A stretch of 64,000 bases of DNA from Acidovorax sp. 69 (GTDB lineage: Bacteria; Pseudomonadota; Gammaproteobacteria; Burkholderiales; Burkholderiaceae_C), in NCBI RefSeq assembly GCF_002797445.1, contig NZ_PGEP01000001.1:4278501-4342500 (forward strand). The letters are read 5' to 3'. The notes beneath the pieces were generated by a model. It was given only the letters and a program-made list of their open reading frames with translations. It did no database searches and had not been told where the DNA came from. The translations under genes were made by a program, and so were the position numbers. Below, piece after piece: positions 48,154 through 55,143 of the stretch (positions within the stretch are counted from its first letter, which is position 1; every line of letters starts with the position of its first letter).

Positions 48154-49326
48154 TCAAATCCCCAACTGACGTGCAGCCAGGTCCTTCATGATTTCTTCCG
48201 CACCGCCGCCGATCATCATGACCTTGACCTCGCGGTAGATGCGCTCGCTGACGGTGCCGCGCATGAAGCCCATGCCACCCAGGATCTGCACGGCCTGGTC
48301 GGCGCAGAACTGCATGGTTTGGGTGGCGTGGTTCTTGAGCAGGCACACCTGCGCCACCCACTCCGGGCCAGTGCGGCCCGCGTCGGCCTGCGCGGCCACG
48401 GACTCGCACCACGCGGCGGTGGACTGGATGCGCATCTGCATGTCCACCAGTTTGTGGCGGATGACCTGGTGCTCCACCAGCGCGGCGCCAAAGGTCTTGC
48501 GCTGGCGGGCCCAGGCCAGGGCCTCGTCGTAGCAGGCCTCGGCAAAGCCCAGGGCTGATACGGCCAGGCCAAAGCGCTCGCCATTGAAGTTGGCCATGAT
48601 GATGCGAAAGCCCGCACCCTCCTCGCCCAGCAGGTAGCGGGCGGGCACGCGCACGTTGTCAAACCGCAGGTGGGCGGTGTCGGAGCAGAGCCAGCCCATC
48701 TTGTCGAGCTTGCTGCGCGACAGGCCTGGGCTGTGGCCGGGGATGAGCAGCATGGAGATGCCTGCGCTGACTTTGCTTCCGGCCTCCCCGGTCCTCACAG
48801 CCACCGTGATCCAGTCCGCGCGCATGCCGGAGGTGATGAACACCTTTTCGCCGTTGACGATGTACTCATCGCCCTCGCGCCGCGCGGTGGTCTTGAGTTG
48901 GGCCACATCGGACCCGCCACCGGGCTCGGTGATGGCCAGCGCAGCAATCTGCTCGCCCGCCAACACGGGCGGGATGACCTCAGCACGCACAGCATCGCTG
49001 CCATGCGCCAGCACGGGCGGCAAGCCGATGTTGTGCGAGAGCAGGCTGGCCAGCACGCCGCCGCTGGCACCGTGGCGACTGAGCGCGCGCCACAGCGGCA
49101 GGCGCAGCAGGTAGCTGGCAGGCGTGCCGCCGTACGACTCGGGGTAGCCCAGGCCCAGCAGGCCCAGGTCGGCCGCACGGCGGTACAGGCTGCGAGGGAA
49201 TTCACCGGCGGCGTCCCAGGCATCGACATGCGGGGCGATCTCGGTGCGGGCGAAGCGGGTGACGGTGTCGGTGAGCGCGGTGCGGTCTTCGTCGCTCACA
49301 GAGGTCACATCGGATGAGGATGTCAT
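48154..49326 (-). CDS. Acyl-CoA dehydrogenase (second in the carboxylase operon)
   Basis: A 390-residue acyl-CoA dehydrogenase. The start at 49326 overlaps the stop of the carboxylase alpha gene as ATGA; the open frame further upstream is a shadow. Motifs are LAITEPGGGSDVAQLKTTARREGDEYIVNGEKVFITSGMRADW and QILGGMGFMRGTVSERIYREVKVMMIGGGAEEIMKDLAARQLGI, where GGGAEEI is the region of the usual catalytic base. Being distinct from the AtuD-like enzyme two genes upstream, it probably dehydrogenates a different intermediate. Confidence 0.92.
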   Translation of the reverse strand: MTSSSDVTSVSDEDRTALTDTVTRFARTEIAPHVDAWDAAGEFPRSLYRRAADLGLLGLGYPESYGGTPASYLLRLPLWRALSRHGASGGVLASLLSHNIGLPPVLAHGSDAVRAEVIPPVLAGEQIAALAITEPGGGSDVAQLKTTARREGDEYIVNGEKVFITSGMRADWITVAVRTGEAGSKVSAGISMLLIPGHSPGLSRSKLDKMGWLCSDTAHLRFDNVRVPARYLLGEEGAGFRIIMANFNGERFGLAVSALGFAEACYDEALAWARQRKTFGAALVEHQVIRHKLVDMQMRIQSTAAWCESVAAQADAGRTGPEWVAQVCLLKNHATQTMQFCADQAVQILGGMGFMRGTVSERIYREVKVMMIGGGAEEIMKDLAARQLGI

Positions 49327-51377
49327 GCGGGCGCTCCTTGCGTGGCGGGTGCAAAGCGGGCCAGCACCTGGCCAGGCGCCACCTGCTGGCCGGGCGCCAC
49401 CAGCAGCTCGGCCACAGTGGCGGCGACGGGGCAGGCCAGGCTGTGTTCGAGCTTCATCGATTCGATGACCACCACCGTATCGCCCGCCGCCAGTGTCTGG
49501 CCTGGGGCCACGGGCAATGAAACCACTTTGCCGTTGAAGGGCGCGCGCAATTCCGTGGCACCGCCCGCTGCACCCGCGCGCGCAGCGGGCTCCCACGATG
49601 CGTCTTCCACCCAGCCATCCACACCACCGGTTTGCCAGTGCCAGCGCAATGGGCCCACGGGCACACAGCGCACACCGCGTTGGAGCAGTTGCAGCGTGGT
49701 GCTTGCGGGCTCGGCACCCGCCTGCTCGACCTGCAGCCGCCCGCCGCCCAGCTCGCGCACGGCCACGGCATGTACCTGGCCCTGGTGGCGCAAGCGCAAC
49801 GGCCGGGCCAGCGCGCAAGGCAGGCTGGGCGATGGATTTGAAGCAAAAATGGCCTCTAGTGCAGATGGAATAAGCACCAGTAGCTCTTTTTCTAATAGCA
49901 ACTGCAGCAAGCCCGCTGCATGCTCCGCCAAGAAGGGCACCAGCGCCTGCCCGCTGGCAAACACCGGGTGCAATAAGCACTCCGCCAGAAACGCGCGGTT
50001 GGTGGGCAGGCCCAGCACGCGAGTGTTGTGCAGGGCGCGCACCAGGGTCGCAATGGCCTCGGCCCGCGTGGGCGCATGCACGATGAGCTTGCCCAGCATG
50101 GCGTCGTAGTGGGGGGTGACTTCGGCGCCCTCTTCCAGCGCGTGGTCAAAACGCAGCGCACCGATGGCAGCCCGTTCAAACGCCGTGGCAGGCGGCGTGT
50201 TGAAGTGCAACACACGGCCGGTGTGCGGCCGAAAGTGCGCGTCTTCGGCACACAGGCGCACTTCGATGGCGTGGCCCTTCATCACCACCTGCGATTGCGT
50301 GAGGGGCAGTGGCTCGCCCCGTGCCACGCGGATCTGCCATTCGACCAGGTCCAGGCCGGTGAGTGCTTCGGTCACCGGGTGCTCCACCTGCAGGCGGGTA
50401 TTCATCTCCATCAAGAAGAATTGCGCCCCCACGCTCCCCGCTACGCGTGGTTCGCTGCCCCCAACCGGGGTAGGGGCCCCGGCTTTGCCGGGCCGGGGGT
50501 CCTTCGCGACTTGGGGCGGCCCGGCGTCGCTCAACCCCCCACCATCCAGCAAAAACTCCACCGTGCCCGCGCCCACATAGCCAGCCGCCTGTGCCAGCGC
50601 TACGGCATAGGCACCCATGCGTTCGCGCAGCGCGGCGTCCACGGCGGGGCTGGGGGATTCTTCGATGAGCTTCTGGTGGCGGCGCTGCACCGAGCAATCG
50701 CGCTCGCCCAGGTGGATGCAGGCACCGTGGGCGTCGGCAAAAATTTGTACCTCTACATGGCGGGGCTGCAGCAGCGCGCGTTCGATGAGCAGGTCGCCAC
50801 AGCTGAATCCCGCCAGCGCTTCAGACCGTGCGCTGGCCAGTGCGGCGGGCAGTTGCGCCGCATCGGTGACGAGCCGCATGCCACGCCCGCCGCCGCCCGC
50901 CACGGCCTTGACCATGGCGGGGTAGCCAATGCGCGCGGCCTCTTGCGCAAAGCGCTCGTCGCTTTGGTCGTCACCCGCGTAGCCAGGCAAGCAGGGCACG
51001 CCGTGCGCTGCTGCCAGCGCCTTGGCGCCCGCCTTGCTGCCCAGCGCGCGGATGGCGGCGGGCGGCGGGCCGATCCACATCAGGCCCGCATCGACCACGG
51101 CCTGGGCAAAGTCGGCGTTCTCGCTGAGGAAGCCATAGCCAGGGTGCACGGCATCTGCGCCCGTGGCACGGGCTGCGGCCAGGAGCTTGTCGGTGCGCAA
51201 GTAGGTGTCGACGCTGGCGGCGCCGCCCAGGGCCACGGACTGGGTGGCCTCGCGCACATGCAGGGCGTTGGCATCGGGTTCGGAGTAAACCGCGACCGTT
51301 TCGATGCCCATGCGGTGGGCGGTGTGGATGATGCGGCGGGCGATTTCGCCGCGATTGGCGATCAGTATCTTCTTCAT
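49323..51377 (-). CDS. Biotin-dependent acyl-CoA carboxylase alpha subunit (AtuF-like), with two in-frame repeat insertions
   Basis: A 684-residue biotin carboxylase plus biotin carrier, like geranyl-CoA or methylcrotonyl-CoA carboxylase alpha. The N-terminus (MKKILIANRGEIARRIIHTA) and ATP-grasp motif AVAGGGGRGMRLV are normal. MEMNTRLQVEHPVTE follows, and the C-terminal VIESMKLEH carries the biotinyl Lys642. Two segments look inserted. About residues 280-317 (GGLSDAGPPQVAKDPRPGKA region) lie between the strands VEFLLDG and FFLMEMN, usually joined by a tight turn. About residues 491-513 (LLEKELLVLIPSALEAIFAS) are encoded by an AGCTAT element. Both keep the frame. It overlaps both neighbours by four bases (ATGA). 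Confidence 0.92.
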   Translation of the reverse strand: MKKILIANRGEIARRIIHTAHRMGIETVAVYSEPDANALHVREATQSVALGGAASVDTYLRTDKLLAAARATGADAVHPGYGFLSENADFAQAVVDAGLMWIGPPPAAIRALGSKAGAKALAAAHGVPCLPGYAGDDQSDERFAQEAARIGYPAMVKAVAGGGGRGMRLVTDAAQLPAALASARSEALAGFSCGDLLIERALLQPRHVEVQIFADAHGACIHLGERDCSVQRRHQKLIEESPSPAVDAALRERMGAYAVALAQAAGYVGAGTVEFLLDGGGLSDAGPPQVAKDPRPGKAGAPTPVGGSEPRVAGSVGAQFFLMEMNTRLQVEHPVTEALTGLDLVEWQIRVARGEPLPLTQSQVVMKGHAIEVRLCAEDAHFRPHTGRVLHFNTPPATAFERAAIGALRFDHALEEGAEVTPHYDAMLGKLIVHAPTRAEAIATLVRALHNTRVLGLPTNRAFLAECLLHPVFASGQALVPFLAEHAAGLLQLLLEKELLVLIPSALEAIFASNPSPSLPCALARPLRLRHQGQVHAVAVRELGGGRLQVEQAGAEPASTTLQLLQRGVRCVPVGPLRWHWQTGGVDGWVEDASWEPAARAGAAGGATELRAPFNGKVVSLPVAPGQTLAAGDTVVVIESMKLEHSLACPVAATVAELLVAPGQQVAPGQVLARFAPATQGAPA
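49838..49905. repeat. AGCTAT-type hairpin element, copy 5, inside the carboxylase alpha gene
   Basis: AAAAATGGCCTCTAGTGC, then GAATAAGCACCAGTAGCTC on the plus strand. It aligns closely with the intergenic copy at 56943 (GGCTTCTAGTGCC, then GAATAAGCGCCAGTAGCTAT). It is translated in frame between the biotin carboxylase and biotin carrier parts. Confidence 0.8.
50427..50540. repeat. GC-rich palindromic insertion inside the ATP-grasp domain of the carboxylase alpha gene
   Basis: About 114 bases (38 codons) have several hairpins: CCACGC with GCGTGG, CCCCAACCGGGG, GGCCCCGGC with GCCGGGCC. The sequence style matches intergenic GC-rich repeats of Comamonadaceae (for example TTCGCTGCCCCC and TTGGGGCGGCCCGGCG). 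It interrupts an otherwise conserved protein segment without breaking the frame. Confidence 0.7.
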
Positions 51378-53363: not shown

Positions 53364-53412
53364 GGTGCTTGTCTCCGTGATGGTTGGTGCCACATTTCCT
53401 GATTTCACATCA

Positions 53413-53472
53413 CCGTTCGGGCTGAGCTTGTCGAAGCCTTGCGCAGCGCTTCGACGAGCTCAGCGTGAACGG
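53413..53472. repeat. TTCGACAAGCTC-type inverted repeat, copy 3 (within the atu-like operon)
   Basis: CCGTTCGGGCTGAGCTTGTC-GAAGC is mirrored by GCTTCGACGAGCTCAGC-GTGAACGG with a nine-base loop: a nearly perfect stem of about 25 bases. It lies between the carboxylase beta and acyl-CoA dehydrogenase genes and could reduce readthrough or stabilise mRNA ends. Confidence 0.85.
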
Positions 53473-53529
53473 TTGGTGGCGTGTTTGATGCCAATTCCAT
53501 GGGCTGTAGCGAGGATGCCGGGTGGTGGG

Positions 53530-55143
53530 CTACATGCGCGCCACCCCGAACTGCATGGGGTGCAAGGCACGCGCAGCACCTTCGGCCACGGTGTCCAGGC
53601 AAAACGCCAGCACAGCCCGCGTGTCGCGCGGGTCGATCACGCCGTCGTCCAGCAGCAGACCGCTGGTGTAGAACGCATCGGCCTGGGCCTCGAAAACGGT
53701 CACGATCTTGTCGAACTGGGCTTGGGATTCGGTGGGGTCGGGCGTGATGCCTTTGCGCGCCAGCGCCGCCTCGGTCACGATCTGCATGGTGCGTGCAGCC
53801 TGCTCGCCGCCCATCACCGACGTCTTGGCCCCGGGCCAGCTGAACAAAAAGCGCGGCGCATAGCCGCGCCCACACATGCCGTAGTTACCCGCACCAAAGC
53901 TGGCGCCACACTGGATGGTGATCTGCGGCACGGTGGCGTTGGACACGGCCTGGATCATCTTGCTGCCGTGCTTGATCATGCCGCCCTGCTCGCTGTCCTT
54001 GCCCACCATGAAGCCCGTGGTGTTCTGCAGGTAGACGATGGGGTGGCCCAGCTGGCACATCCACTGGATGAAGTGCGTGGCCTTATTGGCGCCCGCCACA
54101 TCGATGGGGCCGTTGTTGCTGATGAAGCCCACGGCATGGCCGCCAATGCGGCCCTGCGCGCACACGGTGGCCGCGCCGTAGCGCGCCTTGAATTCGAGAA
54201 GCTCTGACCCATCGACCACCCGCGCTATCACCTCGCGCATGTCTACAGGCTGGCGCAGGTCGCCCCCCATCAGGGCGAGCAGGTCGTCGGCAGGCAGTGT
54301 GGGCGGTGCACCGACGGCACGCGGGGCCAACGCCCACCCGGTGTTGGCGATCACGTCGCGAGCCATGCCAATGGCCTCGCGGTCGTCCAGCGCCAGGTAT
54401 TCGCCCAGACCCGAGACAGCGGTGTGCATGTCAGCGCCGCCCAGTTCTTCTTCGGTGGCGACCTCGCCGGTCGCGGCCATGAGCAGCGGCGGCCCGGCCA
54501 GAAAAGCGCGCGAGCGGCCCAGCACCATGATGACCACATCCGACAGCCCCGGCATGTAAGCGCCGCCCGCCGTGCCCGAACCATGCTGCACGGTGATCAC
54601 CGGAATGCCCGCCGCCGACAGCCGCGCAAGGTTGCGAAACAGCGTGCCGCCATGCACAAAGCCCTCGACCCGGTAGCGCATGAGGTTGGCGCCCGCGCTC
54701 TCGACCAGGTGCACAAAGGGCAGACGTTCGCAGAGCGCGATCTCTTGCACGCGCAGGATCTTTTCCAGGCCCATGGGCTGGATGGCACCGGCCTCGATGC
54801 CGGAGTCGCTGGCCACCACCATGCAGCGCACGCCACTGACGAAGCCAATGCCCGCGATCATGCCGCCGCCGGGTACAGACTTTTCCGGGTCCTTCACATC
54901 CTGCAGGTAGCCCGCCAGCGTAGCCAATGGCAGCCATGGCGCGCCCGCATCCAGCAGCAGCGCCACGCGCTGGCGCGGCAGCAGCTGGCCGCGTTTTTCA
55001 AACTGGGGCAGCGAGCGCGCCGAAGCGGCGGCGGCGCGGTCTTCCAGCGCGCGCAGCGCATCAAGGCGCGCAGCCAGGGCAGCACGGCGACTTTGCGCAT
55101 CGGGTGCGCCGGGGTTGAAGCGCGAGGCGAAGGCGGCGGTCAT
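53530..55143 (-). CDS. Biotin-dependent acyl-CoA carboxylase beta subunit (AtuC-like)
   Basis: A 537-residue carboxyltransferase that moves CO2 from biotin to a branched unsaturated acyl-CoA. Both crotonase-like halves are present. Key motifs are GGGMIAGIGFVSGVRCMVVASDSGIEAG, VQHGSGTAGGAYMPGLSDVVIMV, then LQNTTGFMVGKDSEQGGMIKHGSKMIQAV and IQCGASFGAGNYGMCGRGYAPRFLFSWP. Length fits methylcrotonyl/geranyl-CoA carboxylase beta, and the cluster order favours geranyl-CoA-type substrate. The start at 55143 overlaps the SDR stop as ATGA. Confidence 0.93.
   Translation of the reverse strand: MTAAFASRFNPGAPDAQSRRAALAARLDALRALEDRAAAASARSLPQFEKRGQLLPRQRVALLLDAGAPWLPLATLAGYLQDVKDPEKSVPGGGMIAGIGFVSGVRCMVVASDSGIEAGAIQPMGLEKILRVQEIALCERLPFVHLVESAGANLMRYRVEGFVHGGTLFRNLARLSAAGIPVITVQHGSGTAGGAYMPGLSDVVIMVLGRSRAFLAGPPLLMAATGEVATEEELGGADMHTAVSGLGEYLALDDREAIGMARDVIANTGWALAPRAVGAPPTLPADDLLALMGGDLRQPVDMREVIARVVDGSELLEFKARYGAATVCAQGRIGGHAVGFISNNGPIDVAGANKATHFIQWMCQLGHPIVYLQNTTGFMVGKDSEQGGMIKHGSKMIQAVSNATVPQITIQCGASFGAGNYGMCGRGYAPRFLFSWPGAKTSVMGGEQAARTMQIVTEAALARKGITPDPTESQAQFDKIVTVFEAQADAFYTSGLLLDDGVIDPRDTRAVLAFCLDTVAEGAARALHPMQFGVARM

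Follow-up and report, generated by a model that had tools for sequence, protein, structure and literature searches.

In-frame fusion of short repeats to genes is established for the palindromic elements of Rickettsia (RPE) and for some enterobacterial repeats (PMC2229807). The RPE, palindromic and 105–146 bp long, are found between genes and in frame within conserved genes, 19 reading frames being involved, and one RPE-bearing enzyme, Gmk, is active (PMC2229807). ERIC, IRU, RU-1 and other bacterial MITEs are also short non-autonomous repeats fused in frame to genes, and most such MITEs are described as having a high A+T content, terminal inverted repeats, ends in TA and duplicated targets (PMC2229807). 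The Beta-proteobacterial repeat element (BRE), reported in 2011 from Bordetella and other Betaproteobacteria, is about 75–91 bp long with a GC content of 63.7–78.9%, forms tandem copies, and was noted by its authors to have copies within coding sequences; 4 copies were counted in A. citrulli and 1 in Acidovorax sp. JS42 (PMC3110155).

The repeat described here, one copy of which lies in a carboxylase gene within the 64,000 nt of Acidovorax sp. 69 DNA that were analysed (the window), has a core of about 74–84 bp and a unit of 84 bp with 78.6% GC. These values fit the length and GC range of BRE (the window copy being a long form of 114 bp), and the tandem habit, the copy number varying among relatives, and the spread over Betaproteobacteria are shared as well. 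Compared by description, the two may be the same element; the accessible part of the BRE paper is silent on the proteins hit, on frame keeping and on recurrence in the same loop (PMC3110155). Like RPE, the repeat is palindromic and occurs between genes and in frame in conserved protein genes, but, again by description, it differs from them in its core length, its tandem arrays, its hosts (Burkholderiales, the Acidovorax group) and the filling of the same loop in different genera. It resembles ERIC, IRU, RU-1 and other MITEs in being a short non-autonomous repeat fused in frame to genes, whereas its GC-richness sets it apart from most of them. In the literature within reach, subscription journals largely excepted, no account was found of in-frame insertion of the repeat into named Comamonadaceae proteins, and the available portions of Rhodoferax and Ramlibacter genome papers held nothing relevant on the element.

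The reading frame of the carboxylase gene was intact and open throughout, encoding 684 aa. Biotin_carb_N, Biotin_carb_C and Biotin_lipoyl matched the product, as did PRK08591 and CPSase_L_D2, each in two stretches (the best being residues 1–278 and 116–278, respectively) that broke off at the insert and picked up again beyond it. The best solved relative, 3u9s (methylcrotonyl-CoA carboxylase alpha), aligned to residues 2–281 and then 318–491, with zero residues of its own between the two stretches. Neighbouring genes gave matches, below the curated cut-offs, to acyl-CoA dehydrogenases, an enoyl-CoA hydratase, a carboxyltransferase-type subunit and a 3-keto-5-aminohexanoate cleavage-type enzyme; because of these matches the protein is regarded, on sequence grounds, as the biotin subunit of an acyl-CoA carboxylase. 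These results bear out the earlier note, which had read an in-frame insert in the ATP-grasp domain of a biotin carboxylase. Its length, exactly 114 bp and 38 residues (282–319), was also correct, while comparison with empty orthologues shifted its position by six bases from the 50427..50540 first given (Table 1). The insert interrupts the beta-hairpin turn that joins VEFLLDG to FFLMEMNTR; in the empty Acidovorax orthologues this turn mostly reads D-G-X-D/E-F. Its high GC content was confirmed, the 114 bases as first delimited having 78.1% GC versus 67.9% in the rest of the gene and 64.1% in the window.

Table 1. Features of the carboxylase gene and its repeat copy, with positions in the window
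Feature	Position	Strand	Basis
Biotin carboxylase plus biotin carrier subunit of acyl-CoA carboxylase (putative)	49323..51377	-	ORF, family models, solved relative
First hairpin strand TVEFLLD, residues 272–278; invariant T272, V273, E274, F275	50544..50564	-	Alignment and structure model
In-frame repeat element, long form (84-bp unit plus 30 bp inner extension)	50421..50534	-	Junctions versus empty orthologues
First hairpin of the element, GCGAC...GTCGC (consensus GCGCC...GGCGC)	50506..50530	-	Sequence versus unit; covariation
Extra inner hairpin of the long form, GGCCCGGC AAA GCCGGGGCC, one base bulged	50475..50494	-	Read by eye
Second hairpin strand FFLMEMN, residues 320–326; invariant E324, M325, N326	50400..50420	-	Alignment and structure model

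In the AlphaFold model, which rests on 28 aligned sequences and has a mean pLDDT of 84.6, residues 281–316 scored under 50 and lay between strands 269–278 and 319–326, so that the insert is probably a disordered loop in a well-folded enzyme, as had been predicted. The proposed place next to the active site is borne out in part, in that the two strands joined by the loop bear the invariant residues E274 and E324/N326, for which we assume a catalytic role. In filled orthologues the added block mostly began with TTGA and ended with GGGGGC plus about 4 bases before TTC, the cleanest block (L013) measuring 84 bp, or 28 residues. Relative to the consensus, the first helix of the window copy carried a compensatory change. 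Inner extensions similar to that of the window copy were present in the carboxylase of G006 and in recJ of G026 (L328), and the 122 bases around the window copy matched G006 at 86% over 121 bp. Elsewhere in the window, between two genes at about 53409–53530, short frames read FGLSLSKPCAALRRAQRER and HAELVEALRKASTSSARTV; this stretch is presumably a widespread intergenic repeat of the host family.

Searched with the 84-bp unit, the host genome (4.97 Mb, one contig, 100% complete) contained the window copy and three diverged copies (C1:62022, 1989496 and 4089322; E 3e-14 to 1e-7). With the 122-bp window form, the other matches at E ≤ 1 were fragments of 18–37 nt, and the species is thus poor in copies. 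More matches were obtained in sister species at E ≤ 1e-4, namely 58 in G026, 21 in G065 and 15 in G011, and the translated unit was found in 46 of 47 genomes of the genus (E ≤ 1). The recurrence anticipated by the earlier note was therefore found for the 84-bp unit at home and, in G006, for the long form, the 114-bp form being unique in its own genome. At E ≤ 1e-5, copies were present in at least 200 of 250 family genomes and at least 124 of 141 genera, in at least 24 of 250 order-level genomes, 6 of which (own included) belong to the host family, and in at least 2 of 185 class-level genomes, both within that family; as three or four candidates were scored per genome in these surveys, presence and copy numbers are lower bounds. 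Plasmids of Variovorax, Rhodoferax, Acidovorax, Burkholderia, Paraburkholderia and Azoarcus also gave matches. Since homologous copies exist elsewhere, chance is excluded as the origin of the insert.

The 138 copies anchored on the unit were 83–88 nt long, except one of 99 nt. Folded as a single sequence, the insert had no clear excess of stability over shuffled sequences (z -0.82 and -1.65), and the fold of the single consensus sequence differed from that of the aligned copies. The consensus fold of 133 distinct copies had five helices, three of which covaried beyond all shuffles: helix 5–9/25–29, paired in 94.1% of cells, with 113 double-change cells against a maximum of 41 in 500 shuffles; helix 13–15/20–22, with 21 against at most 8; and helix 59–60/64–65, with 58 against at most 29. 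The other two were nearly invariant (3 and 4 double-change cells). Because related rows inflate such tests, the covariation is regarded as support rather than proof. The several hairpins first noticed are thus upheld by the family alignment for three helices, and not by the insert folded alone. In an Rfam scan, all matches were sub-threshold, and the reading frames of the element were not unusually open (4.9 of 6, versus 5.1 in shuffles). A role as terminator was considered and rejected: a run of at least four T residues to the right was present in 2 of the 35 copies from intragenic loci, 5 of the 51 others and 1 of the 31 from family-wide loci, numbers too small to build on.

A total of 63 sites at E ≤ 1e-4 were read: 15 each in G065 and G011, the three others in the own genome, and 30 in G026, the last drawn from the 40 of 48 candidates that were scored and possibly incomplete. 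A copy was called intragenic, automatically, when one open frame crossed it and a coding GC pattern was present on both sides. By this criterion 34 of the 63 sites were intragenic (17 of 33 in G065, G011 and the own genome, and 17 of 30 in G026), and a protein of known family was hit at 32 (16 of 33 and 16 of 30). Two loci for which the GC criterion was doubtful were left out of the 32, L232 having no family and L315 carrying its copy upstream of an FtsZ domain; L312 was counted unscanned, as it equals the scanned L227 across the compared stretch. The repeat is therefore dispersed as proposed, but is not merely intergenic, and in-frame carriage in conserved proteins sustains the parallel drawn with the Rickettsia elements. 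The genes hit included fmt, birA, recJ, prpE, xdhA, creD, murD, gspE and those of copper P-type ATPases, one in the own genome (L256); by Pfam domains, recG, uvrA, thrC, ligA and genes for a DEAH-type helicase, a family-3 glycosidase, a molybdopterin oxidoreductase and a second biotin carboxylase were added. Read at the 5' end, the 34 intragenic copies used both orientations and five of the six frames (13 same-0, 2 same-1, 7 same-2, 9 opposite-0 and 3 opposite-2). In a family-wide sample, 14 of 29 top copies were intragenic by the same criterion, 28 of the 29 coming from other genera; a fifteenth positive was a plasmid gene of Rhodoferax antarcticus annotated as a Fic family protein. All ten of these 15 positives that were scanned matched families, including Rep, RadA, MoeA, acetoacetate-CoA ligase, MurD and Fmt. 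The intragenic share of about half is below that expected for random insertion if host DNA is taken as mostly coding.

The filling of the carboxylase turn varied among close relatives. The orthologue search covered 47 genomes, 38 of which had a match, and of the 30 Acidovorax loci read, 8 were filled and 22 empty. Among 80 relatives, the turn motif spanned 22–30 residues in 75 and, read by eye, 23 in L052, where the automatic pattern over-ran; repeat-like inserts were found in the other four, L011, L012, L013 and L021, the last a Polaromonas orthologue with a related repeat. Other proteins showed the same recurrence: one loop of Fmt was filled in 11 of the 20 Acidovorax loci recognised by the pattern (20 of 30), at least two of them decayed, and again in another genus (L277); one loop of RecJ was used repeatedly (G065, G026, G061), as was one loop each in MurD, a polyamine aminopropyltransferase, a FemAB-like protein and acetoacetate-CoA ligase. 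Tandem number also differed among relatives, 1 versus 2 units at the carboxylase turn (two in G006), 1 versus 2 in fmt, and 1 versus 5 in the FemAB-like protein. In the fmt gene of G032 (L351), a G run in the copy was short of one base compared with relatives, which broke the frame at that point, indicating either a damaged gene or a homopolymer sequencing error.

The reading that we consider very probable is that of a dispersed, tandem-expanding repeat, a long-form copy of which is tolerated as a translated surface loop in the carboxylase. The insert is a copy of a hairpin-forming Burkholderiales repeat, densest in the host's own family, that would reach new places in or near genes and expand or shrink in tandem. 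Copies in coding DNA would persist if the frame is kept and the site is a loop; the survivors would give rise to Gly/Pro/Ala-rich loops, probably disordered and tolerated by the enzyme, and would later decay or be lost. In the window, a long-form copy lengthens the turn between two ATP-grasp strands, presumably with a near-neutral effect on the enzyme.

An alternative that is possible, though doubtful, is that each gene acquired the repeat once, in the distant past, and passed it on vertically, with many losses, exchange of genes and homogenisation of copies in place of repeated insertion at the same loop. It agrees with the block occupying the same codon position across filled Acidovorax carboxylases and with the decayed forms in G008 and G023 (identity 0.87 in the insert versus 0.983 in the flanks), and gene exchange between species could scatter the states on a tree. 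However, the gene tree required at least 9 changes between the filled and empty states, at least 6 of them forced by well-supported branches (36 rows, insert removed, comprising 28 of the 30 orthologues, without L131 and L134, and 8 further loci; L006, L007, L008, L011, L013, L015, L017 and L022 were left out). The inserts of G015 and G014 were 99% alike while their flanks were 92% alike; the same turn was filled in a paralogous carboxylase of G026 and in carboxylases of two other genera (L261, L274); two genera had a filled murD loop, each reading the 5' half in a different frame; and copA was filled at two different sites, one in G065 and one in G011 and the own genome, each lineage being empty at the site of the other. 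Shuffled labels averaged 8.9 changes, the filled state being no more clustered than by chance, so the tree cannot by itself tell insertion apart from loss or gene exchange. The earlier note had regarded the same loop in orthologues of unrelated genera as a sign against its reading; taken literally, a few such cases exist (L012, L021, L261 and L274), but because these genera carry the same or a related repeat there, they strengthen the interpretation as a repeat. Reuse of one loop may reflect tolerance, with only copies in such loops surviving, a preferred target, or old insertions followed by losses and gene exchange. We hold it unlikely that the palindrome is actively spreading and inserts repeatedly and independently, in different species and genera, at the same loops of core enzymes (the carboxylase turn, fmt, murD, recJ and acetoacetyl-CoA ligase) by a structure- or target-guided mechanism; if it did, such a palindrome would naturally supply essential proteins with disordered loops of variable length.

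Selection of the loop as a functional addition to the carboxylase, serving regulation or partner binding, would account for its recurrence at the same turn in several lineages, but is quite improbable, given that most orthologues lack it, that it adds anywhere from 28 to 65 residues, that its decay between G008 and G023 outpaces that of its flanks, and that unrelated proteins bear the same repeat in both orientations.

Among 52 sites with coding-like flanks on one strand, 36 were in frame and stop-free, versus one-third expected if the frame were irrelevant (p 1.3e-7); element-free control positions were so in 644 of 709 cases. The other 16 did not keep the frame and had one or more stops between the flanks, which fits copies between neighbouring genes, although some could be broken genes. 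Tandem arrays stepped by 82–87 bp. The in-gene arrays L324, L325 and L313 had steps of 84 or 87, and steps not divisible by three (82, 83, 85 and 86) were confined to arrays outside the intragenic calls (L323, L319, L259 and L235); since 84 or 87 also occurred outside these calls (L228, L237, L326, L273 and L283), the steps are consistent with translation but weak as evidence. As side observations in G026, L326 and L319, both outside the intragenic calls, stepped by 84 and mostly by 83 bp, respectively. The insert is presumably translated. Its removal after transcription by intron-like splicing, or skipping by the ribosome, would leave the turn normal and could be suspected from the covarying hairpins and from the location of the element in core enzymes, but the excess of in-frame, stop-free sites over that expected for an unread insert, the in-gene arrays stepping by multiples of three, and the failure of every Rfam family to reach its threshold make it very improbable. 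An assembly or sequencing artefact, conceivable because GC-rich hairpins are hard to sequence, can practically be discounted, as the own genome is a single complete contig, the frame is kept, and insert variants recur in eight assemblies (own included) and four further ones (L011 and L013 duplicating G006 and G014).

As for what moves the repeat, which would have to be mobile under the preferred reading of a dispersed repeat, neither a transposase nor a target duplication was found, and filled and empty pairs at the carboxylase turn, fmt and copA, compared by eye, had no consistent duplication. A gene of the Y1_Tnp family, often with an open frame of 232–281 aa, was present in 44 of 47 genomes of the genus (C1:4101634-4101915 in the own genome). 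The Y1 transposase was rejected as the mover: unlike REP with its RAYT transposase, no full copy lay beside the Y1 genes in 20 neighbourhoods, 15 of which held pieces of 15–23 nt (E 0.002 to 0.91). Separately, G070, of the same genus, had 37 Y1 transposase (PF01797) matches versus none to three in the other 46 genomes.

The best-known examples of palindromes that code for protein come from Rickettsia and Wolbachia, whose reduced genomes and weak selection provide a ready excuse. In the present case, roughly half of the sites surveyed for a family-wide repeat fall in frame within conserved enzymes of bacteria with genomes of 4–5 Mb, and replication, repair, cell-wall and translation genes are among those affected. 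The filled and empty close orthologues, the tandem variants and the recurrent sites make the effects of insertion on enzymes directly testable, and the repeat could account for unusual indels among the annotated proteins of the host family. In the biotin carboxylase of Comamonas (L016 and L020), a different insert of 29–31 residues, SGFSREEA.SRLKPLP, was observed between the carboxylase and carrier domains, and it looks like another translated repeat.
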